A stretch of DNA of 64,000 bases. Source: Chryseolinea sp. H1M3-3. GTDB lineage: Bacteria > Bacteroidota > Bacteroidia > Cytophagales > Cyclobacteriaceae. A program made the position numbers and the translations under genes. Positions 26,185-37,089 of the stretch are shown piece by piece; position 1 is the first letter of the stretch; the number at the start of each line of letters is the position of its first letter. The stretch lies in assembly GCF_029360725.1 (NCBI RefSeq), contig NZ_JARKMY010000002.1, positions 806,001-870,000 of the forward strand. Direction: 5' to 3'. Below the pieces are notes generated by a model. That model worked only from the letters and a program-made list of their open reading frames with translations. It was not told the origin of the DNA and ran no database searches.

Positions 26185-26826
26185 TTAAGGAAAATTATAA
26201 ACCGTTGCAAGGTCTTTCAGCTCCAAAAGGTTCTTAATGGTTAGTTTGTCAAATACCCTGGCTTTGTGCGTTGCCACTGTGGTAGGTTGAATTTTTAATT
26301 TGTTGGAGATGTCTGAAACGGTATGTCCATTTAATAGCAATGCAGCAATTTCAAATTCGCGTGTAGAGAGCATTGAAAATGGATTGGACGGCTTATCCTG
26401 GTAAACGTCGTCCACCAGAACTTTTACCAATTCATCGCTGACGTATCGTTTATTGCTCAGAACAAGGTTAATTGCCTTTTGTAATTCGTCTAATGGTGCT
26501 TCCTTCGATAAAATTCCTTTTACACCAGCTTTCAAAAATCTTTTCCCGTAGATCGATTCCGAACACATGGAAAAGATCAACACAGGTGTCTCTGGAAACT
26601 TATTTACAACATATTCGATCTGTTTAAAATGAATGGTGTTGATGGACTGCACATCCATAATGACAAGCCGGTATACATGATCATTAAGCTTATTGTGCAT
26701 GTGATCGCCATTGGGCGTCTCATGGATTTCTGTGCGTGGAAATAGATCACTGAGGAGAACTTTGAGCCCAGTTCTTACCACAACGTTATCATCTACTAAT
26801 AAAAATTTTCCACCCTGTTCTTCCAT
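26185..26826 (-). CDS. NarL/FixJ-type response regulator
   Basis: A 213-residue response regulator. The receiver domain has the acidic pair VDDN, phospho-acceptor Asp58 in LVIMDVQS, and the conserved Lys in ILSKEAPLDEL. The LuxR-type HTH (about 150-205) is MLSTREFEIAALLLNGHTVSDIS followed by TTVATHKARVFDKL. No histidine kinase is adjacent; the PAS kinase at 1281-3008 is the only one in the window. Its own upstream region carries repeated TTCTACA motifs, which may be binding sites. Confidence 0.9.
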   Translation of the reverse strand: MEEQGGKFLLVDDNVVVRTGLKVLLSDLFPRTEIHETPNGDHMHNKLNDHVYRLVIMDVQSINTIHFKQIEYVVNKFPETPVLIFSMCSESIYGKRFLKAGVKGILSKEAPLDELQKAINLVLSNKRYVSDELVKVLVDDVYQDKPSNPFSMLSTREFEIAALLLNGHTVSDISNKLKIQPTTVATHKARVFDKLTIKNLLELKDLATVYNFP

Positions 26827-27259: not shown

Positions 27260-28306
27260 CTAGGATGCCCAGTTCACTTGGATGTGTAAGTGGTTGTCAT
27301 TATCCGGAAATACGATTCCGAGCTGAGGCACCAATACGCGGAGATCCGGATCCTTTAAAAGAGAGGGACTGACCGATGAGAATTTCTTTAAGTTGGTTTT
27401 GCCGAAGAATTCGCCTTGCAGTGGTAAACCAAAGCCAAGGCTTTTTTTGTATTGCGATGGAAGTGATAAAAGATAGCGCAATATATTGGCAACCATTTTT
27501 ACAGAACCGGGCGTTTCAAAGTTGCCGCCTTTATAATTAATGTCGATACACCGCCCGGCACAGTGTCCGGTACACGAACCGTTAGATGGATCGCGGATAA
27601 AACTACCGATGATGATGTCACTGAAGTTTTCGGCCTTTGCATTTTGCATGATGTGGTAGATGACAGGCAAGGCCGCAACAATTTTAGAATTTGGATTTAC
27701 ACTCTTTACCTGCTGTCCATTGGCAATACTGATAAGCTGATTTTTGGAATCAAAGTTTGTTCCGAGAAGCCCGCTGGTCATTGCATCTACGATTTTGGTT
27801 GCGTGCCAGGCATTGTATTCAAAAATATTGGTGAGGGGTGGAACCGTGGAAGTCCCTCCAGGGATGACAGGAACAGTCGGATATGGAACGTAGGATTTTT
27901 TTTCGAGTAAAGGTTGCATCTTTCCCCACGTTTGTGGCCCAATAATGCCGTCGCAGTCTGCTTCGGAAAAACCCTGACTTCGTTGCCATTCGGACACGGC
28001 CTGAGCAAAAGCTTCCGGCCCCAGGCTCACATTCTTCATTCCCGAAAATGGCAAGAGCAGGTCGTTGATTTTGTCATATTGACTATTCCAACCTAACTGG
28101 CTTCCATAATAGTAATTAAGTCTTACAGCGTTTGACCAGTCCTTGACAAGGTCTTCAAATTCCCATTCTTCAACTTCCAGGAAGTTGTCCCATTCGCCTT
28201 CAAACATGGTTTCGGGATTCGTTGCAGACATTTTTCGCAGTTCTATATCCGAAAGTATTTCGTCTTCCAGCATAATCTCAGGAGTTGTATCATTCAGTGC
28301 TCTCAT
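27260..28306 (-). CDS. M15-type peptidase with peptidoglycan-binding module
   Basis: A 348-residue protein. Residues 1-50 are an acidic leader rich in Glu. Residues about 50-135 form a peptidoglycan-binding module (WQRSQGFSEADCDGIIGPQTW). The C-terminal domain (about 165-348) fits peptidase M15/VanY: SCTGHCAGRCID supplies the zinc ligands His248 and Asp255, and NHLHIQV near the end supplies His339/His341. This would cleave peptide crosslinks or D-Ala-D-Ala ends of peptidoglycan. No signal peptide, so export would need a non-Sec route or cell lysis. Last gene of the cluster, 12 bp after the amidase/muramidase gene, with which it shares the binding module at about 50% identity. Confidence 0.82.
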   Translation of the reverse strand: MRALNDTTPEIMLEDEILSDIELRKMSATNPETMFEGEWDNFLEVEEWEFEDLVKDWSNAVRLNYYYGSQLGWNSQYDKINDLLLPFSGMKNVSLGPEAFAQAVSEWQRSQGFSEADCDGIIGPQTWGKMQPLLEKKSYVPYPTVPVIPGGTSTVPPLTNIFEYNAWHATKIVDAMTSGLLGTNFDSKNQLISIANGQQVKSVNPNSKIVAALPVIYHIMQNAKAENFSDIIIGSFIRDPSNGSCTGHCAGRCIDINYKGGNFETPGSVKMVANILRYLLSLPSQYKKSLGFGLPLQGEFFGKTNLKKFSSVSPSLLKDPDLRVLVPQLGIVFPDNDNHLHIQVNWAS

Positions 28307-28318
28307 GATAGCGTGATT

Positions 28319-30748
28319 TTATTTTTTACCTAGAAAAGTTTTATCAAACACGCGACCTACTTTTTCCAACTCGTATTTGATAGTCGATTGTTTTTGTTCA
28401 TCGCTCTTATAGGTTTTCTTGCTATAGTAAGCAGTGGTTGCGCTTTTTAATAATTCCAACAGCAGATGGGCAAATTTTTGATAGTCATTTATACCCTGTG
28501 CTGCTGATTTTTGAATAGCACTCTTCAAAGCCACATGCAGGATAGCTGGTCGTGAATTAAACGATTCATAGATGAACGCCCACAAGGTTGGATAATGATC
28601 ATTAAAACGATTAAGATATCCGTTCAGATCATTACGTTTTCGAATGGCATTCATGTGTTCGCGGCCGATTTTGATTTGCATGATGATAACATCATCCTCG
28701 AGACCAGCGGCAAAGAACCGTTTGCCCCATTCCAATGATCTTAAATCGTTTTGATGGGCAGCATTCTTGATGGCGATCGTGCTTTTGCCATCGCTCCACG
28801 TATATTTTCGGACGGGCTCTAACTCGATACCGTGCTTTCTAAAGGCTTGCGGTACTTTTTTGATTAATTCAACAAGCTCGTTCGACCGAAGTGTAAATTG
28901 GATAAAGCCCATGCTCATGCCCATGTTATCGTAAGAATTGATGGCGCCAATCAAACCACCTGATTCCGGTTGCGACACCAACGCAAACACATCAATTTCA
29001 TTGTCGGTAATGTCGAGCTTTTTATCTTTTCTTAACGCATGAAGTTTATCCCGTAGCGACCCACCGCCATAAGCAGCCCAGCCACCATTTTTCTTCTGCG
29101 CAAATCGAATTTGTTTTCCATTGATTAATTCAAACTTTGAGTCAGAAGTGCCGGAAGGTGGCGCGGAAGCGATCTTTAATGTTTTCCGCATAACGGCCCA
29201 CGTACCCGGTCCAATGACGCCATCCACATTATTTCCGGTAAATCCATTCTTGCTTTGCCATTGGAATACTGCTTCGGCAAACGCTTCCTCGCCAAGACTT
29301 ACATTCGACATGCCTGAATAGGGAAGCAACATGTCGTTAATGCGTTCTGCATATTTATGCCAGCCCAGTTTTTCACCGTAATGCCTGTTTTGTCTCACTG
29401 CCTCAGACCAATCTCTTACCAATTCCTCCGTTTCATAAGATGAGACCGCGTCTGCTTCATCTTCAGGCTCCTGCAGCGTTTCCATCTCCCATTCGTTCTC
29501 AGGTTCAAGGGTGTTCGATTCGTGGTCATGAAATTCCTGTTCACATTCAAAGCACTCATGATCTTCTGTTTCGTCGGTCATCTCGCGTGTAACCGGTGCG
29601 TTATTCCTGTTTCCCCAGGTCTTCCATTCCGGCAATATAGGTTTGCCAGTTCCGCATTTAAACTGGGGGCCACCATCGGTTAATCCCAATTTATCAACAG
29701 CCCACTGTCCTACGTTGTACCAAATATCTGGTCCCGGATCATTTTCTCTTGAATCTGAGCTTTGCCGGTGTGCAAGAATATGCGTCGTTCCCAATACGGT
29801 TTTTAGATAGCTTGTGAGAAACTTCCCCGATTCAAATTGTGCCTGCGTTGGCCGGTCTTTGTCAGGTACTTTTGCTTCTTTATTAATCCACCATCCGCCC
29901 TTGATGTTCGGAAAATTGCCCTCGAACTCTACGGCTACACTTCCCGGGCTCACACAGTTGCCATGCCATATCATCCTTGAAAACGCATGGAGTTGAATGA
30001 TTCTGCCGTCGAACATAATGCAGAAATGCGCACCTGTGGCAAGATAGCTTTCAGGATTGCTGTAACCCTTTGATTTCGGATTCCACCTTTTGAATGCCAT
30101 TTGATGCAGGACAAACGCATATACTTTTCTGGGATCACGATAGCTGTTCAAAATGTGCTGTGGTTTGTTGTTCACCGCTTTTTTTGTCCAGTCGTCAATT
30201 TTTGTTTTTGCTGCGCTGATGATATCAGACGTGGCAGTTTCCAAGACGCTGCCTTTGGTGCGAAGTAATGCGTCAGCTTCAAGTAAACAACGTTCCGTTA
30301 CCGAATCAATTTGTTGCGTGACTTTTAAATTGTTTTTTGTTTGAAAATCACCAAGTGCTTTTTTCGTTGCCGGGTCTAATACATTATTATCCGTCAAATT
30401 TAGTCCCAGCACGCGGTTCAAAACCACTTTAGCCCAACTGGTTCTGCCTTCTGATTTTTTAGCTTTCGGCGCGTTAGCAACTTTTGCCTGGTGTTCAATC
30501 TCCTGGGCGATTTCATATTCTGAGATTGCATGAGATGTTTCCGCAGAAAAGGAAAGCTCATCTGCTTGCTCACTTTCATCCATGTCAAACTGATCTATGA
30601 TTTCAGTATGTGTTTCCTGGGTTTCAAAAATATCAGGAACATGTTGTTCAATCGAAAACGGTCCGTTCGATTCAAATTCATCCAGGGTTTCAAATTGATC
30701 TAACGTAAGTGTATCCACCCCGTTGTATTTCGTGGAAGTATTTGTCAT
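28319..30748 (-). CDS. Double-headed peptidoglycan hydrolase (amidase + lysozyme-like)
   Basis: An 809-residue multidomain protein. Order: acidic leader (1-90, with EFESNGPF); a first peptidoglycan-binding-like domain (about 100-160); an N-acetylmuramoyl-L-alanine amidase (Amidase_2/PGRP-like, about 205-345) with putative zinc ligands His215, His327 and Asp337 in ENDPGPD; an acidic His/Cys-rich linker (about 385-445); a second binding module (442-525, WQSKNGFTGNNVDGVIGPGTW); and a lysozyme-like domain (about 575-800) with Glu595 in SQPESGG and SYDNMGMSMGFIQFT. It can therefore cut both the stem peptide bond and probably the glycan. The ATG at 30748 is chosen over a frame start at 30799. No signal peptide. 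Confidence 0.82.
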   Translation of the reverse strand: MTNTSTKYNGVDTLTLDQFETLDEFESNGPFSIEQHVPDIFETQETHTEIIDQFDMDESEQADELSFSAETSHAISEYEIAQEIEHQAKVANAPKAKKSEGRTSWAKVVLNRVLGLNLTDNNVLDPATKKALGDFQTKNNLKVTQQIDSVTERCLLEADALLRTKGSVLETATSDIISAAKTKIDDWTKKAVNNKPQHILNSYRDPRKVYAFVLHQMAFKRWNPKSKGYSNPESYLATGAHFCIMFDGRIIQLHAFSRMIWHGNCVSPGSVAVEFEGNFPNIKGGWWINKEAKVPDKDRPTQAQFESGKFLTSYLKTVLGTTHILAHRQSSDSRENDPGPDIWYNVGQWAVDKLGLTDGGPQFKCGTGKPILPEWKTWGNRNNAPVTREMTDETEDHECFECEQEFHDHESNTLEPENEWEMETLQEPEDEADAVSSYETEELVRDWSEAVRQNRHYGEKLGWHKYAERINDMLLPYSGMSNVSLGEEAFAEAVFQWQSKNGFTGNNVDGVIGPGTWAVMRKTLKIASAPPSGTSDSKFELINGKQIRFAQKKNGGWAAYGGGSLRDKLHALRKDKKLDITDNEIDVFALVSQPESGGLIGAINSYDNMGMSMGFIQFTLRSNELVELIKKVPQAFRKHGIELEPVRKYTWSDGKSTIAIKNAAHQNDLRSLEWGKRFFAAGLEDDVIIMQIKIGREHMNAIRKRNDLNGYLNRFNDHYPTLWAFIYESFNSRPAILHVALKSAIQKSAAQGINDYQKFAHLLLELLKSATTAYYSKKTYKSDEQKQSTIKYELEKVGRVFDKTFLGKK

Positions 30749-30870
30749 GTTGTTGTGTTTATGTTGAAAGGAGGAGAACGTTGGCTGTATCAAAGTCAAA
30801 CCATGGTGAGTACCACCATTGCATTGTCAAAAGATTGCCGCCACCAGAACGCTTGCTCCTAGCTACTTTA

Positions 30871-32142
30871 TTAATTCAACGCTACCTTTTGCTTTAAGCT
30901 TGCACCGTTGCTGGCAGGTTGCACCTTTACGGTCCCCATTACATTGGCTTCCGGATTTTTGATCTTATGTCCTGTAGCTTTTTCCCAGTTATTGATTACA
31001 GTCAGGAACGCATTCATGAAGTTTCCTTCGATCGAAAGCGGCGTGGGCACTGGCGGATTTAAACTCGACAACATTCTTCCTACCCACGCTGAGTCATCCA
31101 AAAGACCAGTGGTTTCAATGGCAAGTAAAATGGTGGCCGCTGATCCTGCCATTTCGAAAAGCGATTGACATTTGCGATGTGCTTGAATCCCAACTTTGTT
31201 TCCGATTTTTATTAGTCTTTCACCGATGGTACTGGATTGGCAGCTGAGATAATTTACAACCGGAGAGTCATAAGAAATAATAAAGCTGAACCAGCTTGTC
31301 ATCAGCACGGAAGAATATTCCTCGCGTGAAAGATTTAAATGTGCATAAGTATTATTTGCCGTATCGCCCCGCCGGGCCGCCATCATTTCCTGCAATTGTT
31401 GTGCATACTCAACAAGGATGTTAGTATCTGAAGTATTGGCGCCGGATGTATTTCTGGCGTTGATGTATCCTTGCCAGATTTCACTGAGATATCTTTCGAA
31501 AAGTACAATGAATTGCTGATTAGATGATTTGGAACGAACATACGCCAGCGAATCGCTTTGTGAAGCGGCATCACCAAAGGCGAGATCCATTCCGAACATA
31601 CGCTGGTAGGCATTTCTTCTGCTTGCATCCGCGCTGGGACGGATTAAACTTCGAAGGTTGGAAACCTTCGAGGTATCACTTTTGAAGAATAAACGTTCAG
31701 AATTATGGATCCAATTGTAGGTAGACAGACCGTTAGAAATGCCTAGCTCTTCATCATTCATATAACGTTCGATGACGCGTTCGAAGATTTGGAGGATCCT
31801 GGTGTTTTCAAGAAGATATGCGTACATAAGGTGATAGGTACTGCTATCCACGAAGGAACTATACTGATCGGTAGGACTGGCTACAGGGAATTCGTAGATG
31901 TCTTGCGCATCGACGTCATACCAATGACGAATGATAGCCGTCTCAATGAAAGCCGGATCTTCTACCGTGCAAAAATTAAGTTTGTCAAATACCTGGTACG
32001 TCCAGATAGGGGCGGGGCTGGTAGGATTAGTGAGCACTGCGGTTGGTGCGGAGGGAACAGCTACATAGTCGCTTTGAATAGGCCGGTTTCCGGTAAGGGA
32101 GCGGTTATATGCCGCAAATATGACATTGTCAAGGATATCCAT
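30871..32142 (-). CDS. Unrecognised 423-residue cluster protein
   Basis: A soluble, mostly helical 423-residue protein with no family that I recognise. The N-terminal part is Pro/Thr-rich (TAVLTNPTSPAPIWTYQ), the middle has DPAFIETAIIRHWYD and several Tyr-rich helices, and the C-terminal end becomes basic and Asn/Gly-rich. No signal peptide, membrane helix or catalytic motif is visible. It starts 20 bp after the coiled-coil gene and is followed by a 122-bp gap before the hydrolase start, so it is inside the cluster. Could be a structural, adaptor or immunity component. Confidence 0.7.
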   Translation of the reverse strand: MDILDNVIFAAYNRSLTGNRPIQSDYVAVPSAPTAVLTNPTSPAPIWTYQVFDKLNFCTVEDPAFIETAIIRHWYDVDAQDIYEFPVASPTDQYSSFVDSSTYHLMYAYLLENTRILQIFERVIERYMNDEELGISNGLSTYNWIHNSERLFFKSDTSKVSNLRSLIRPSADASRRNAYQRMFGMDLAFGDAASQSDSLAYVRSKSSNQQFIVLFERYLSEIWQGYINARNTSGANTSDTNILVEYAQQLQEMMAARRGDTANNTYAHLNLSREEYSSVLMTSWFSFIISYDSPVVNYLSCQSSTIGERLIKIGNKVGIQAHRKCQSLFEMAGSAATILLAIETTGLLDDSAWVGRMLSSLNPPVPTPLSIEGNFMNAFLTVINNWEKATGHKIKNPEANVMGTVKVQPASNGASLKQKVALN

Positions 32143-32162
32143 AGTAGTATATGTTTATAATA

Positions 32163-32570
32163 TTAAATTTGGACGGTTTGAGGTTGCAGTGGTTGTTGTT
32201 GTTTAGCCTGACCGTTAGGTTTACCGACTAGCCGCTTCTTAATGATTTCATCGTAGGATAGACGCCTCCTGGCAATGTATTTTGTGGTATCGTCGTTCTT
32301 TGCACGAATTTCCACCCCTCGTCCTCCACCGATAATCGCGATTGCTTTTCGGTCCTGTTCCGTTTGTAGATCAGGGTTGCAAGGATCGCAGGCGCGCAAT
32401 TGGTTTAAAATAATTTGCAGTAGTCTCTCCAATTGGTTTACGCGGCCGCACATATTGTCAACGTCAAATTCGCCTTTGGAAAATTTGTATTCGATCGCAT
32501 CCTGGAATCTTTTTATTTCACTTTCCAGCGCTGCTTTTTTTCCTTTTAATTCATCAACATTGGTAGGCAT
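32163..32570 (-). CDS. Small coiled-coil cluster protein
   Basis: A 135-residue protein. Residues 5-60 are heptad-like (LKGKKAALESEIKRFQDAIE) and probably coiled coil; CDPCNP follows; the tail is Gln/Pro-rich (GQAKQQQPLQPQ). No known family. It lies between the zincin (41-bp gap) and the 423-residue protein (20-bp gap) and is probably co-expressed. A chaperone or adaptor role is possible but not shown. Confidence 0.68.
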   Translation of the reverse strand: MPTNVDELKGKKAALESEIKRFQDAIEYKFSKGEFDVDNMCGRVNQLERLLQIILNQLRACDPCNPDLQTEQDRKAIAIIGGGRGVEIRAKNDDTTKYIARRRLSYDEIIKKRLVGKPNGQAKQQQPLQPQTVQI

Positions 32571-32611
32571 ATTTTTTTAAATTTAGTTTCTGTTATTGTT
32601 TTATTATTGAA

Positions 32612-33868
32612 TCAGTTCATGTCCACAGAGAACCCGAGTTTGGTCATCCAGTCTTCCTGTTGTTTGTAAAGCGCTGTTAAATCACCTTTGCCTGTTCCGA
32701 TTTTATACCCGTTGAGCGCCAGCAACCGGATACATTCATTCCAGATCCAGGCGTGCGAAGTATAAAGAGACTGGCCTGCCAGGTATTCTAATTTTTCTAA
32801 TGCCTGGGGACTAGCCTTGTTGGGCGGGACAAGTTGCGAGAGCGCTTGATTGCCGAAGCAATGAAAGGGTGACTTAAGAATTAATTGCACAGCATCAGGG
32901 AGTGCATCGACACACAACTTGATCAAGCCAACAGATGAAAAGTTGACAAGATTTACATCGTAGTCGTTCTTAAACGATTCTTCAAGATCATTCCAGGGGC
33001 CGGCGCCATAAAATTGCCGGCACATTTCAATGTTCAGCAGCACCCTTAAGTAAGCAATGGGATGTGGATCATGCTGGTGGTAAGCAAAGACTGCCTGGGG
33101 TGTTCCGCTGACAACATCGTGTAAAGCTGCTACCGCTGCGAATCCTGTGTGAACAAAGGCAAAGGCATCTGCAGCAATTTCGCTCGACCATCCGGAAAAT
33201 GCTGCGCCAACAATCTTGGAGTGGTTTGTCAGTTTGTTCCCCAATGCAACGGAGAGTTCTTCATTCCAATTGAGGATGTGCGCAACCTGATGCCCCGTTT
33301 CGTGTATGATGGCCGTTGGACGAAATAAATTATGTTGCGTAATTTTTACAGCTGCCACATGACTAATGTTTCCATCCCATAACCTAAGACCTGCTTTAAG
33401 AATGGAGGCGCCGACGCCTTTGTCGATATACGTTAATACGGGCGGCGTATCTTTTCCAAGTGGTCGTAACAGGTCTTGCATGCTCTTGGCACACAGTATA
33501 TCACACGCCCTGAGCAGCGCAGAAACATTGGGTGTTGTCCGTGAATTGATCGCGACAGTGTAAAAATGTATCGTCTCTTCCGTTTTCAGGTATCTGTCGC
33601 GCAATTGAATCAATCCGCGTTTGATGTGTCGGAGTGCGTTGCCATCCTGTGAATTCTCTAATTGCTTCTGCAGGTTTTTTGCGAGTGCGACAACTTCGCC
33701 GATGCTTTGCTGCAAAGATTCTTTTAGCTGTGTTCCAATTTTGTGATCGATACCCTGCCAGGCATATCCCGACGCGAGATGGTCCAGTGACGATAGCCGT
33801 GTAGCGGCCTGGAGCCAATGGTTTACCTGGCGCAATAACGACGTATGATGTGAAGCAATGACTTCCAT
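32612..33868 (-). CDS. Zincin-like metalloprotease (HETGH)
   Basis: About 418 residues. The helical N-terminal part (about 1-150) has no recognised family. The catalytic centre is AIIHETGHQVAHI, an HExxH zinc motif, with a candidate third ligand about 37 residues downstream in SSEIAADAFAF, the spacing of gluzincins. An in-frame TTG at 33886 would overlap the upstream gene by 8 bp; the ATG at 33868 leaves a 10-bp gap and is preferred. No signal peptide. The family is not one I can name. Target could be a cluster protein (maturation) or a foreign cell component. Confidence 0.75.
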   Translation of the reverse strand: MEVIASHHTSLLRQVNHWLQAATRLSSLDHLASGYAWQGIDHKIGTQLKESLQQSIGEVVALAKNLQKQLENSQDGNALRHIKRGLIQLRDRYLKTEETIHFYTVAINSRTTPNVSALLRACDILCAKSMQDLLRPLGKDTPPVLTYIDKGVGASILKAGLRLWDGNISHVAAVKITQHNLFRPTAIIHETGHQVAHILNWNEELSVALGNKLTNHSKIVGAAFSGWSSEIAADAFAFVHTGFAAVAALHDVVSGTPQAVFAYHQHDPHPIAYLRVLLNIEMCRQFYGAGPWNDLEESFKNDYDVNLVNFSSVGLIKLCVDALPDAVQLILKSPFHCFGNQALSQLVPPNKASPQALEKLEYLAGQSLYTSHAWIWNECIRLLALNGYKIGTGKGDLTALYKQQEDWMTKLGFSVDMN

Positions 33869-33878
33869 AATTTTTTCG

Positions 33879-36440
33879 TCAGTCAAATTTCTTGTCGGCT
33901 ACAATTTTTATTTCCGGCGATGGAATATTTGGAAGCGTGAGTTCCGAAATATTTCCAAGCGGATTTTTATTTCGGATGGCATTAATAACAGTTCTTATGG
34001 CTGTCATCCCTTGAATATTTGACCAGCTAATTTTTATGGTCACACCGTCTTGAGGTTGTGCTTGCGCTTCTTTAAATTCTGCGGCGCGGCCCTTGAAGAA
34101 ATTGGCGACTGCCTGGTAGGCATGCTCCGATATTTTTTCAACGAGCTGCTCGATTAGTTTGGTGAGCATTTCTTTGCTGCCTCCCAAAACAATTCCGCCA
34201 GCGGTTTTTGCCAGCGAGGCCAACGCTGATTCCTGTTCATGATCGCCGATGTGTTCAAGATAAAGTTCTGGAATAGCTTCATGAATGATCTTGACCTTGT
34301 TAGATACATTTTTAGAAAGCATACCGTTTAATACATTCTTAATCGCATGCCGGATAGAGATAGCGGCTCCGAGGAAATCGTTCTTATTGATTTTTTCTAC
34401 GACAGATTTTGCATCCTCTTCGCTGAAGTAGTAGCTGAAACTGATTTCCGACTTTACGAAATTAATCACACCTTGAATGTCGCCCGATTGACTGGGCTTC
34501 GGTGCACGCATCTTGCCGGGCTTACCAGCTTTGGTTGCGCCACGATTAACAGCAGGAATTCTTAAACGGGCGCCGCTGATTTCAAGGTAATAAAAGCGTT
34601 GGCCTACGCCAGTGCGATGGCGCTTAGCGTTCGATTTTTGTGAGATATCTTTTCCAAGTGCAGGTTCTTTCAACAGAATAGCGGCAGCCTGTTTCGTGAG
34701 TGGATGGAGTTGTACCCAGGCAAAGGGTTGCTGTGCATTGAAGCCTGGTATGTTTTCGAATTTGCTAATCTTACTAAGTTTGGTGCCCGGGATGGTTTCG
34801 AACAGATGAACCTTTGCCTGAATTGGTTTTGAAGGATCTAACGAAAGTTTGTCTTTCAGAAAATTGGCAAGAGGTAAGTCTCTGAAAGATTTTATCGCTT
34901 GTGCACTTTGTGGATCAATGGTGATATTAAAAACTTTAGTAAATTTTTTGTACATGTGCTTCGGGCCTTTTCGTGGCTTCAGCACCCAGACCCCAGGTTG
35001 TATGGAGGGACGAAGTTGTTCTTTAATGTATTGCGGAGGGAAATTATTAGCGGCAGCTGTTTCAAACGCTTCTAATAGTTGTAGCGTGAGTGCTTCCTGA
35101 TCTTGAATGGTGGCTTCATTCAGTTCTGCGATATGTTGCACCGTTTCCTGGATCACATTTGCGATTGCCTCATATCCAATATCGCTTTTATTGGTTTCGT
35201 TAACCTCAAACCCAATGGCACTCATGCCCACGTCAATAATGCTTGCTGCCAATGGTTTCGCTACGTTCTCGGGTACGTACTTCCCGACAAGTTTTGCAAG
35301 CAAGCCAGCGAGGAAGTTGATTACTTTTTGCCTGCCAATAACAGAAATAGCCACCTTGATAACGGGTTGAAGTGCAAGGATGGCTGCAGGCAGAAAACGT
35401 TCAATGGCGGGTGCGGGACTTTCTCCTGGTGGAAGACTTTTAAGCTCATTTATAAATTGCTGGCGGGCGGACTCTAACGAGGGGGGTGTGATTCCTCCAG
35501 CTTCATACGCGAGTTCACGTTCGATGACTTCATCTGAAAATTCATACTCCGATACAATGGAATTGCCTTCCACTTCATCAGCAGTAAAAAGAAGCTGGGC
35601 CACGGTGGTGTCGAATTCTGTTTGAATGCCATCTATTTCACCAGATGAAAACAGTTCTGTGGATTCTGGTGCAGCCGGGGCCTCGAGTTTTAAGAATTTC
35701 TTTGCCAGCGTTTGGGCATGGGGTTGTAAATTTTTTGGCAGTTTGCCGATGGCGAATTTCAATACTTTATCCAGCAGCGGTTTGATGAGCCCTTTGATCT
35801 TATTAAGAATGATATTAACCGGTAATATTTTCCCGACAGCATTAATACCTTTCTTTGCCAGATCTACACCCTTCTTGACGACCGATTTTACTTTATTGAT
35901 GATCTTTCCAAAAAATTGTTCCTGTGCTGGTGAAAAGTTGTTGTCGCTAAATTCAAGCTCACTGAAAAAAGTTTCGATTTCTTTTTCATTATAGTCGGAA
36001 AGGTTGTTGCCAGAAAAGTGTTGCGCAACTTTGTCGATCATCGTTTCGGTTTCCATTAACAATGGCGTGATGAATTCACGAGCCTGTTGTGTTGCAAAGG
36101 GTACATAGTGATCGCCCATCGCCGCTTCATTAGAGATTTTGGGAAGCCATCTGTCTTCCATCTCGGATGCAAGCTCATACAGGCTATCAGAAAATTCAGC
36201 GTCGTTTAGCTCTCCAAGAAATTGAACAAATTCTTCTGCCACCTGTGTTACGACAGCGCTGTTACCTGCAACTTCGTAAGTTCTTGTAAAGGGACTTTCC
36301 AGTTCGTGGAGAAAATTACTGTAAGCTACTTCAGCCGGCTCATTTGAGCGGGTTGCTTCTTTTAACGTTGATATATCTGCAAAGGGCGTTTCAAACATGG
36401 CAAGTTCAGAACTCATGCCGTTTCCTGCATAACTGTTCAT
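33879..36440 (-). CDS. Large cluster protein with E-S/T-P-F leader and amphipathic region
   Basis: An 853-residue protein of unknown family. The N terminus carries two copies of a short motif, FETPFA (16-21) and LESPFT (47-52). Residues about 177-251 are Lys-rich, amphipathic and proline-punctuated (FFGKIINKVKSVVKKGVDL), and about 350-410 are hydrophobic with Gly/Ala (FLAGLLAKLVGKYV), both features of membrane-active proteins. The rest is mixed alpha/beta with a basic segment near 600-650. The open frame reaches 36701, but the ATG at 36440 gives a normal acidic leader. It heads the cluster. Cargo carrier, pore-former or structural role are all possible. Confidence 0.72.
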   Translation of the reverse strand: MNSYAGNGMSSELAMFETPFADISTLKEATRSNEPAEVAYSNFLHELESPFTRTYEVAGNSAVVTQVAEEFVQFLGELNDAEFSDSLYELASEMEDRWLPKISNEAAMGDHYVPFATQQAREFITPLLMETETMIDKVAQHFSGNNLSDYNEKEIETFFSELEFSDNNFSPAQEQFFGKIINKVKSVVKKGVDLAKKGINAVGKILPVNIILNKIKGLIKPLLDKVLKFAIGKLPKNLQPHAQTLAKKFLKLEAPAAPESTELFSSGEIDGIQTEFDTTVAQLLFTADEVEGNSIVSEYEFSDEVIERELAYEAGGITPPSLESARQQFINELKSLPPGESPAPAIERFLPAAILALQPVIKVAISVIGRQKVINFLAGLLAKLVGKYVPENVAKPLAASIIDVGMSAIGFEVNETNKSDIGYEAIANVIQETVQHIAELNEATIQDQEALTLQLLEAFETAAANNFPPQYIKEQLRPSIQPGVWVLKPRKGPKHMYKKFTKVFNITIDPQSAQAIKSFRDLPLANFLKDKLSLDPSKPIQAKVHLFETIPGTKLSKISKFENIPGFNAQQPFAWVQLHPLTKQAAAILLKEPALGKDISQKSNAKRHRTGVGQRFYYLEISGARLRIPAVNRGATKAGKPGKMRAPKPSQSGDIQGVINFVKSEISFSYYFSEEDAKSVVEKINKNDFLGAAISIRHAIKNVLNGMLSKNVSNKVKIIHEAIPELYLEHIGDHEQESALASLAKTAGGIVLGGSKEMLTKLIEQLVEKISEHAYQAVANFFKGRAAEFKEAQAQPQDGVTIKISWSNIQGMTAIRTVINAIRNKNPLGNISELTLPNIPSPEIKIVADKKFD

Positions 36441-36553
36441 ATCGTATTGTTTTATGGTTTGATGATACGAATGTACACTTGCGTGCCACGTTATGGCTAT
36501 CCCCCTTAAGGGTGAATTCGTATACCAAAAATCATGGAGTAAACGCGCAATTG

Positions 36554-36573
36554 CCCCGAGCCTCAGCTCGGGG
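36554..36573. terminator. GC-rich hairpin between LuxR gene and cluster
   Basis: CCCCGAG (36554-36560) and CTCGGGG (36567-36573) with a 6-nt loop, in the 193-bp gap between the LuxR-type gene stop and the cluster start. No T-run follows on the minus strand, so it may attenuate rather than end transcription. The palindrome CCCTTAAGGG lies at 36503-36512. Confidence 0.4.
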
Positions 36574-36633
36574 TTGAAATAATGTAAAAGGGTTTTTGTG
36601 CCTGATCTCGGGGAAAAATTAAAGGCATCTTGG

Positions 36634-37089
36634 CTAACCGGCCTCCTTCTCAAAAAAAGTCTGATGGTAATGATTAATAAGCGCTGCTGTATTCTTTGCA
36701 CCTGTTTTTAACAAGATGTTTTTGCGATGTGACTTTACGGTTTCATAGCAGACAAATAATTTTTCTGCTATTTCGTTGTTCGTGAAACCTTGCATGATGA
36801 GCCCAAGCACTTCGATTTCGCGGAGGCTAAGTTTTTGATTTTTAATTTCGCAATGATTGTTGAGTTTCTTCTTCAAAAGAAAGACGGCTTCATCTACGTC
36901 TCTCACTTCCATATTAATCTTAACTTCAAAGGAGTCACCGCAGTGTCTTGCAACACTTAGTAAATCTTGTATTTTAATGATCAATTGCTTTTCACTTTCG
37001 GCAGTCCACTTCTCCGCTTCAAAGAATTTGAGCTCCGCGCAAGTTTCTGCGCGCTCGGACAATATTTGCACACAAAGTTTGGTAGACAT
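36634..37089 (-). CDS. LuxR-type HTH regulator
   Basis: A 151-residue regulator. The C-terminal HTH (about 90-150) is LSLREIEVLGLIMQGFTNNEIAEKL then YETVKSHRKNILLKTGA. The N-terminal 85 residues lack receiver-domain Asp/Lys residues and are mostly helical, so it is not a standard response regulator. The ATG at 37089 (MSTKLCVQIL) is preferred over an open frame reaching 37167. It is just upstream of the peptidoglycan-hydrolase cluster in the same direction and is the likely local regulator. Confidence 0.82.
   Translation of the reverse strand: MSTKLCVQILSERAETCAELKFFEAEKWTAESEKQLIIKIQDLLSVARHCGDSFEVKINMEVRDVDEAVFLLKKKLNNHCEIKNQKLSLREIEVLGLIMQGFTNNEIAEKLFVCYETVKSHRKNILLKTGAKNTAALINHYHQTFFEKEAG

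Follow-up and report, generated by a model that had tools for sequence, protein, structure and literature searches.

Effector modules of type VI secretion systems (T6SS) place amidases, lysozyme-like enzymes, nucleases and lipases beside adaptors. In the published descriptions of toxin loci of extracellular contractile injection systems (eCIS), a HExxH metallopeptidase-like DUF4157 protein is paired with peptidoglycan-hydrolysis, endonuclease, deaminase and peptidase toxins (PMC8213781, PMC11297309). The TANFOR proteins, as outlined in PMC7073777, are large polypeptides of Bacteroidota with variable C-terminal toxin domains, among them AHH and peptidoglycan-directed ones; about 87% of them carry Sec signals, and export by the type IX secretion system (T9SS) has been proposed. 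Finally, the signal-less toxins that the lipocone paper portrays with a short C-terminal broken hairpin (PMC12419801) come closest to the idea of an exit route outside known systems. Here, we analyzed a stretch of 64,000 nucleotides from the 6.88-Mb genome of Chryseolinea sp. H1M3-3 (contig NZ_JARKMY010000002.1, positions 806,001 to 870,000; hereafter the window), in which six closely packed genes lie on the minus strand behind a LuxR-type regulator. The operon is of a known general kind, a conserved core with variable effectors, but its core, made up of proteins that we call A, B and D, belongs to no family tested. We propose that it is an accessory operon for the deployment of effectors, most likely antibacterial ones, in which the A-B-D core handles the proteins without Sec signal encoded directly behind it, and we give this proposal an even chance of being right.

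The locus resembles eCIS toxin loci, as far as those accounts go, in combining a HExxH core component with varied toxins and in the hydrophilic N termini, devoid of Sec signals, of the latter; furthermore, one relative (locus L020) encodes an eCIS_core (DUF4157) protein as cargo. It differs in that the window genome has no sheath or tube match, and in that B has no DUF4157 match in Pfam; nor is eCIS_core found among the window proteins. We are not aware of counterparts of A and D in eCIS. With TANFOR, as sketched in its source, it shares the phylum and the range of toxin domains, but the cargo is signal-less and stands behind a separate three-protein core. Similarly, the hairpin of the lipocone account is part of the toxin, whereas here a separate operon core is present. 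As to T6SS, the range of effectors encoded next to adaptors is similar, but a match to the sheath protein VipB/TssC was absent in 18 of 18 carrier genomes, in a search whose control matched Escherichia coli, and a T6SS effector cluster was rejected. A known defense system was likewise rejected, PADLOC matching 0 of 10 proteins. No title or abstract describing the operon was found in the open PMC full-text library, a search that had subscription papers and preprints outside its scope.

A sequence-only reading of the same DNA had described six leftward genes with short gaps behind a LuxR-type regulator, and both coordinates and gaps bear this out. The regulator gene (36634..37089, minus strand like all genes of the cassette; GerE, E value 2.7e-16; likely start ATG 37089) is separated by 193 bp from core gene A (33879..36440, 853 amino acids [aa]), whose start at ATG 36440 matches the starts in relatives, whereas the longest-open reading frame (ORF) start at 36701 would overlap the regulator gene. 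The A protein has a disordered N terminus with ETPF and ESPF, followed by a helical region. Its gene overlaps by 8 bp core gene B (32612..33886, 424 aa), which encodes a zincin-like protein (HETGH...SEIAAD...DPHP). Then come, after 41 bp, gene C (32163..32570, 135 aa), which is small, fast changing and coiled-coil-like and stands between B and D, and, after 20 bp, core gene D (30871..32142, 423 aa), which is all-helical and matches no family. The sequence-only reading was thus right about both protein sizes, 853 and 423 aa, and about HETGH. The first cargo gene (28319..30799) lies 71 bp behind D, or 122 bp if it starts at ATG 30748, and the second (27260..28306) follows after 12 bp.

Cargo 1 combines a peptidoglycan (PG)-binding domain and an N-acetylmuramoyl-L-alanine amidase domain (PG_binding_1, 6.2e-8, and Amidase_2, 1.8e-11, in Pfam) with a PG-binding-like domain of 109 aa that is specific to the cassette (29156..29482, minus strand) and a C terminus that looks lysozyme-like by eye. 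Cargo 2 carries an acidic N terminus, a copy of the cassette-specific domain that is 52% identical to the first, and a C-terminal M15/LAS-like domain recognized by motif only. It had a weak PG_binding_1 match in Pfam (0.016), and over residues 22-344 it shares 54% identity with the end (1266-1592) of a 1593-aa cargo protein of locus L006. Of the enzymes named by the sequence-only reading, the amidase was confirmed by profile, while the M15 and lysozyme-like parts stayed motifs seen by eye: cargo 2 showed an HxxGRxxD...HxH-like motif, with no M15 profile match in Pfam and no PDB relative, and the C terminus of cargo 1 had no support from Pfam profiles, the search of PDB sequences returning nothing relevant. 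No match to the amidase was found outside the cassette in its own genome at E ≤ 0.001. The claim that none of the six genes encodes a Sec signal was supported by a hydropathy comparison, used here instead of SignalP, in which the N-terminal 10-residue maximum ranged from -0.15 to 1.51 for the six genes, the corresponding range of four controls that have a signal or transmembrane (TM) segment being 2.70 to 3.86.

Searches with the core proteins A, B and D gave no significant match in Pfam, NCBIfam (E ≤ 0.1) or PADLOC (E ≤ 0.01) and nothing relevant in profile searches of PDB sequences, and for C there was only a sub-threshold Pfam match, to DUF1192, with nothing in NCBIfam or PADLOC at the same thresholds. 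Within the family, structure and literature searches made, the cassette thus deserves the word "undescribed" that it had been given. The B protein has the sequence features of a zincin metallopeptidase, namely HExxH and conserved metal-ligand candidates downstream (E236, D240, H275). Residues H195, E196, H199, W233, E236, D240, H275, P276 and R281 were invariant in 12 of 12 diverse homologues, down to 17% identity to the window B; the conserved pattern is HExxH...ExxxD...HP, and HExxH was kept in 36 of the 37 loci compared below. Because all ligand candidates are kept while other residues drift, this argues for a zincin-like protein with a candidate metal site that is active. The sequence-only reading had placed this protein among the wall- or protein-cutting enzymes of the kit; since B belongs to the constant core, we infer that it is more likely a processing protease of the system than an enzyme that cuts walls.

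Across seven relatives of the window type, A was 40 to 61% and D 34 to 63% identical. The structure model of A is helical and, with a pLDDT of 52.6, too poor for a structure search; that of D is all-alpha (pLDDT 64.5, pTM 0.70) and had no Foldseek match at E ≤ 0.001. Amphipathic helices were read from the sequence of A. The most hydrophobic 19-residue stretches had means of 1.99 in A (near residue 350) and 1.67 in B, and of 2.66 and 2.91 in two TM controls. The customary 19-residue threshold for a membrane segment is 1.6, so that a membrane role of A is possible, though its segment lies below both controls.

Relatives were found by means of B. The scan of a genome collection of 84,980 species with the B protein yielded six relatives; a B profile matched 7 of 395 genomes of the phylum, and a wider profile (A4) matched the same 7 there and showed B in 24 of 390 genomes of the order. 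Among 72,556 plasmid records, five, all of 1.46 to 2.78 Mb, matched B; a plasmid search with A gave no match. Protein searches with A alone gave 1 of 296 in the phylum (the window itself) and 2 of 196 in the family (the window and one relative); as A alone found almost none, the B profile was needed. We compared the neighborhoods of 37 loci, each from a different genome or record (the window, L004-L010, L019-L027 and L056-L075; L018, which duplicates L009, was excluded, and four of the five plasmids were included), which come from Bacteroidota and from large Paraburkholderia, Rhizobium and Ensifer plasmids. The gene directly before B, on the same strand, encoded A in 9 loci, a protein recognized as A-like by profile in 23 and an acidic protein not covered by the profiles in 4, together 36 of the 37 loci. 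Similarly, B was followed by C and then D (9), by a protein with a D-like profile match (22) or by one that is D-like by weak profile-profile comparison only (3), amounting to 34 of 37. The loci without D after B were L071, where the contig ends, L025 and L075; the last, a marginal match (E 3.6e-10) that lacks HExxH and sits on a contig of 3.2 kb, misses A as well. The gene before B was at most 60 bp away in 33 of 37 loci and the gene after it in 34 of 35; overlaps larger than about 30 bp result from the use of longest-ORF starts. The co-occurrence check that the sequence-only reading had proposed thus came out in its favor, with order and spacing kept and no scattering seen, and because this gene order recurs in relatives, the core arrangement is more than chance.

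Three types of loci could be distinguished. Type I comprises nine window-like loci, with A of about 850 aa, a gene of 103 to 149 aa at the position of C in all nine, and D of about 420 aa. The 23 type II loci encode an acidic A-like protein with a glycine-rich region, often starting with MHNIDRT, and a D-like protein of 546 to 886 aa. Type III is represented by L019, L073 and L074, and L025 and L075 stand outside all types. A tail of the form GxWxRxGxxIIIx ends 31 of 39 A-like proteins (type II loci L020-L024, L026, L027 and L056-L070) versus 0 of 537 other selected ORFs; it is a possible sorting or hairpin element and could be of the broken-hairpin kind. Homology of B between types is clear. 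For A, type III aligned to type II with an E value of 7e-7 over 107 columns (reversed decoy, 4e-4 over 8 columns), and for D, types I and III merged aligned to type II with 6e-4 over 250 columns (reversed decoy, 0.22), type III to type II giving 0.005 (decoy, 0.59). As the profile E values are weak against decoys, A and D are only probably homologous across types.

What stands behind the core varies. Pfam scans of downstream genes covered 8 cargo proteins of window-type loci, those of L007 left out, and 17 of types II and III. Cargo of L005 matched YkuD_2 and SLT, that of L006 PG_binding_1 and SH3_3, and that of L008 PLDc_2, Amidase_2 and Peptidase_S8, all over the Pfam cut-off; L006 also had M15_4 below it. 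At L010, one cargo protein matched OmpA and a second one PG_binding_1, with M15_4 below cut-off, and at L004 the cargo is a divergent gene with Amidase_2 below cut-off (24.3 versus 26). In the other types, the eCIS_core match of L020 was over cut-off and accompanied by a phospholipase-C match below it; L022 had PG_binding_1, L023 Aminotran_1_2 (barely over cut-off), L027 Glucosaminidase, DUF2272 and PG_binding_1, L073 OmpA, and L074 Amidase_2 in one gene and an AHH nuclease in the next. Peptidase_M20 and Amidohydro_2 were found over cut-off further downstream in L021, and an APOBEC-like match below cut-off in L021, L065 and L066. The cargo of L019 and L069 and a 335-aa protein of L021 had no Pfam match. 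Of 22 type II cores, 13 are followed within 9 kb by a deaminase-like protein with the motif HPE...CxxC; the motif occurs in 12 of 492 selected ORFs of at least 150 aa over all loci, 11 of which are those behind type II cores. Within about 9 kb behind B, an enzyme set of metabolic look recurs in type II loci (as tested with Pfam in L021 and L023 and judged by eye in several of L058-L070), which a simple toxin reading does not explain.

That the core is conserved while the wall-cutting, nuclease or phospholipase genes behind it change suggests a mode of antibacterial protein deployment not studied so far. The name "peptidoglycan-targeting cassette" given by the sequence-only reading was apt in that wall enzymes are present but too narrow, because these are the exchangeable part: in relatives, nuclease, phospholipase, protease and deaminase-like genes occupy that position. 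The lysis or predation that the same reading had in mind is still a conjecture. As in polymorphic-toxin systems, different enzyme domains occur behind the same core, which would serve their trafficking, together with an N-terminal motif and the cassette-specific domain. At type I loci, 16 of 18 A and cargo proteins had the motif, [ST]PF, in their first 120 residues, versus 7 of 62 other ORFs of at least 200 aa there, B and D being left out (Fisher p 1.1e-9, only indicative because the relatives are not independent). The domain was found in 6 of 11 carrier genomes versus 0 of 7 non-carriers, and 11 of 11 matches fell within cassette cargo, of type I loci and of the type III locus L073. Non-carriers were defined by lack of A (G310, G384, G451 and G470, with B not tested) or by lack of B (G249, G574 and G072).

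The cassette is accessory and sporadic. G310, from the same genus, has orthologues of the right-flank genes 37408, 38333, 40530 and 46422 in the same order, 57 to 79% identical; next to this syntenic flank the LuxR gene and the cassette are absent, other genes occupying the 13 kb read, and the left flank of the cassette was not found in G310. By identity of B to the window, the nearest cassettes were those of Paraflavitalea (72%), Niastella (69%) and Dyadobacter (67 to 68%), the value for G425 of the same genus being only 51%. Furthermore, L006 and L010, both from Dyadobacter, are 76% identical in A, 81% in B and 45% in D, and D of L006 is 65% identical to that of L004 (G425). Similarity of C was high between the window and L005 (z 11.2), L004 and L007 (z 8.2) and L004 and L006 (z 5.7), as against a z of 1.6 between L006 and L010. 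Judged from these comparisons, C and D appear to be exchanged together between the A-B backbone and the cargo, L010 excepted. A LuxR homologue stands directly upstream of A in L005, L008 and L010, and in L004 one divergent gene separates the two; none was found upstream of A at L006, L007 and L009. Taken together, the spread of targets (wall, nucleic acid, lipid and protein), the patchy distribution and the module exchange favor a conflict system over turnover of the producer's own wall alone.

Effector deployment is our working model. Under LuxR control, the core and its cargo would be made together. Cargo without Sec signal could be recognized through its disordered, acidic or [ST]PF-bearing N terminus, a feature that A has too. 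A, with its disordered or acidic N terminus and its amphipathic or glycine-rich helices, might act at membranes or pack the cargo, while B would cut A, the cargo or both at or near the common N-terminal segment, and C and D would form a specificity or adaptor module. The cargo may leave by a route specific to the core, whose assembly would place it outside the cell or in neighbors, or upon programmed lysis, and, once released, would hit the wall, nucleic acid or lipids of neighboring bacteria. A bolder version, which we regard as possible yet doubtful, is that A-B-D is a new deployment machine, found in Bacteroidota and on large rhizobial and paraburkholderial plasmids, in which A is membrane-active or particle-forming, B is the protease that matures it, D is a helical adaptor, and the three externalize signal-less, exchangeable toxins without any known secretion system, the window-type C-D pair being an exchangeable specificity module.

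Several observations weigh against effector deployment. Export of the cargo and killing are both proposals. Among the nine loci of type I, L009 and L072 lack recognized cargo beside the core, and the cassette-specific domain had no match in the corresponding genomes, G558 and G898; their effectors may be encoded elsewhere in the genome. The set downstream of type II cores, consisting of deaminase-like, aminotransferase-like, M20 and amidohydrolase proteins, is rather constant, unlike a freely polymorphic arsenal. No immunity family was among the Pfam matches of the scanned proteins, small genes being mostly unscanned and no systematic search having been made; C would be a purely hypothetical candidate for a cognate immunity gene. 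Homology across types is weak for A (type I to type III, 8e-4 over 53 columns with a decoy at 0.0077; type I to type II, 0.01 versus 0.04 for the reversed decoy) and for type I D alone, which aligned to type II at 0.024 and, with L072 added, at 0.11. Finally, C of L010 does not follow its D (z 1.2 to the window C, with D 62% identical), and the two proteins that miss [ST]PF are the window's own cargo, of which the amidase has only GPF, seen by eye.

The operon might instead serve programmed self-lysis or remodeling of the producer's own wall, with LuxR-controlled cytoplasmic wall hydrolases opening the cell and A acting as a membrane-active, holin-like protein. The signal-less wall hydrolases among the cargo are consistent with this, as are the amphipathic helices and the hydrophobic segment of A, which exceeds the customary threshold, and the regulators that, partly by eye, adjoin several loci; release by lysis of the producer would fit nearly as well as deployment by the core. 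However, the segment of A is borderline, falling short of the two TM controls. An AHH nuclease, a phospholipase D and a subtilase take the cargo place in other loci, and the system is sporadic and absent from a same-genus genome, which makes self-lysis unlikely in our eyes. It is also conceivable, although improbable, that the proteins are cargo of a known secretion machine encoded elsewhere in the genome (T9SS, type IV or type I secretion system, or eCIS), for which A, B and D would act as adaptors or chaperones. The L020 cargo points in this direction, and of 13 carriers searched, two (G425 and G585) have eCIS tube genes. On the other hand, the window genome matched neither Phage_sheath_1 (control: 3 of 14 genomes) nor Phage_T4_gp19, and the latter was also absent from 11 of the 13 carriers (control: 0 of 14), and an eCIS origin was rejected on this ground. 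The two window cargo proteins have no N-terminal hydrophobic segment and no match to the NCBIfam models of the T9SS C-terminal domain, so that they were rejected as T9SS substrates, the T9SS, type IV and type I machines themselves not having been searched for. The tube genes of the two carriers form pairs that lie away from the cassette and probably belong to an eCIS (G425:C1:6445427-6446344 and G585:C17:85488-86336).

Two further explanations have less in their favor. In a biosynthetic or protein-maturation pathway, B would mature an acidic A into a ribosomal peptide or surface polymer, leaving the hydrolases as bystanders. The metabolic-looking M20 peptidase, amidohydrolase and aminotransferase-like enzymes of type II loci would suit such a pathway, and so would A-like proteins with repetitive acidic N termini and a conserved C-terminal tail. 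Yet in window-type and type III loci hydrolases take the place of these enzymes, and the cargo has the [ST]PF motif in common with A, plus a cassette-only domain; we therefore consider this very unlikely. The least credible explanation, already disfavored, is a relic of a prophage or gene-transfer-agent lysis module. Both window cargo proteins have endolysin PHROG matches, mainly through their PG-binding parts, and A has a single PHROG match, to a tape-measure protein (E 0.0074), but this match is weak and spread over 700 residues. PHROGs gave no match to a holin, and A has one borderline hydrophobic segment. Moreover, B had no relative in 50,697 phage records, 0 of 39 candidate IMG/VR stretches was confirmed, and no phage structural gene was recognized by eye in the ORF lists of the neighborhoods, whose genes were not scanned; a phage lysis cassette was thus rejected.

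If effector deployment is the right explanation, conserved operons that are now read as hypothetical proteins beside wall hydrolases or nucleases would be dedicated to deploying antibacterial proteins, and this would account for the way in which the signal-less wall hydrolases made by such environmental bacteria get to their targets. Further effectors could then be sought by way of the cassette-specific domain and the N-terminal motif. Even if the idea of export fails, a zincin-like protein with two conserved partners across phyla would constitute an unstudied biochemical system.

As to the surroundings of the cassette, a Bacteroidota-type promoter pattern occurred twice in the window versus 4.6 times expected and not at all in the cassette, and promoter- and terminator-like sites were at about chance level. 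A second regulator gene, encoding a response regulator with a receiver and a LuxR helix-turn-helix domain (26185-26826, minus strand), lies on the same strand 433 bp past the last cargo gene. Beyond it, between positions 226 and 25000 of the window, we recognized by eye universal-stress-like genes (226, 12706 and 22136) as well as BON-domain-like, FtsH-like and ribonucleotide-reductase-like genes, which suggests that an island of stress or low-oxygen genes adjoins the cassette.

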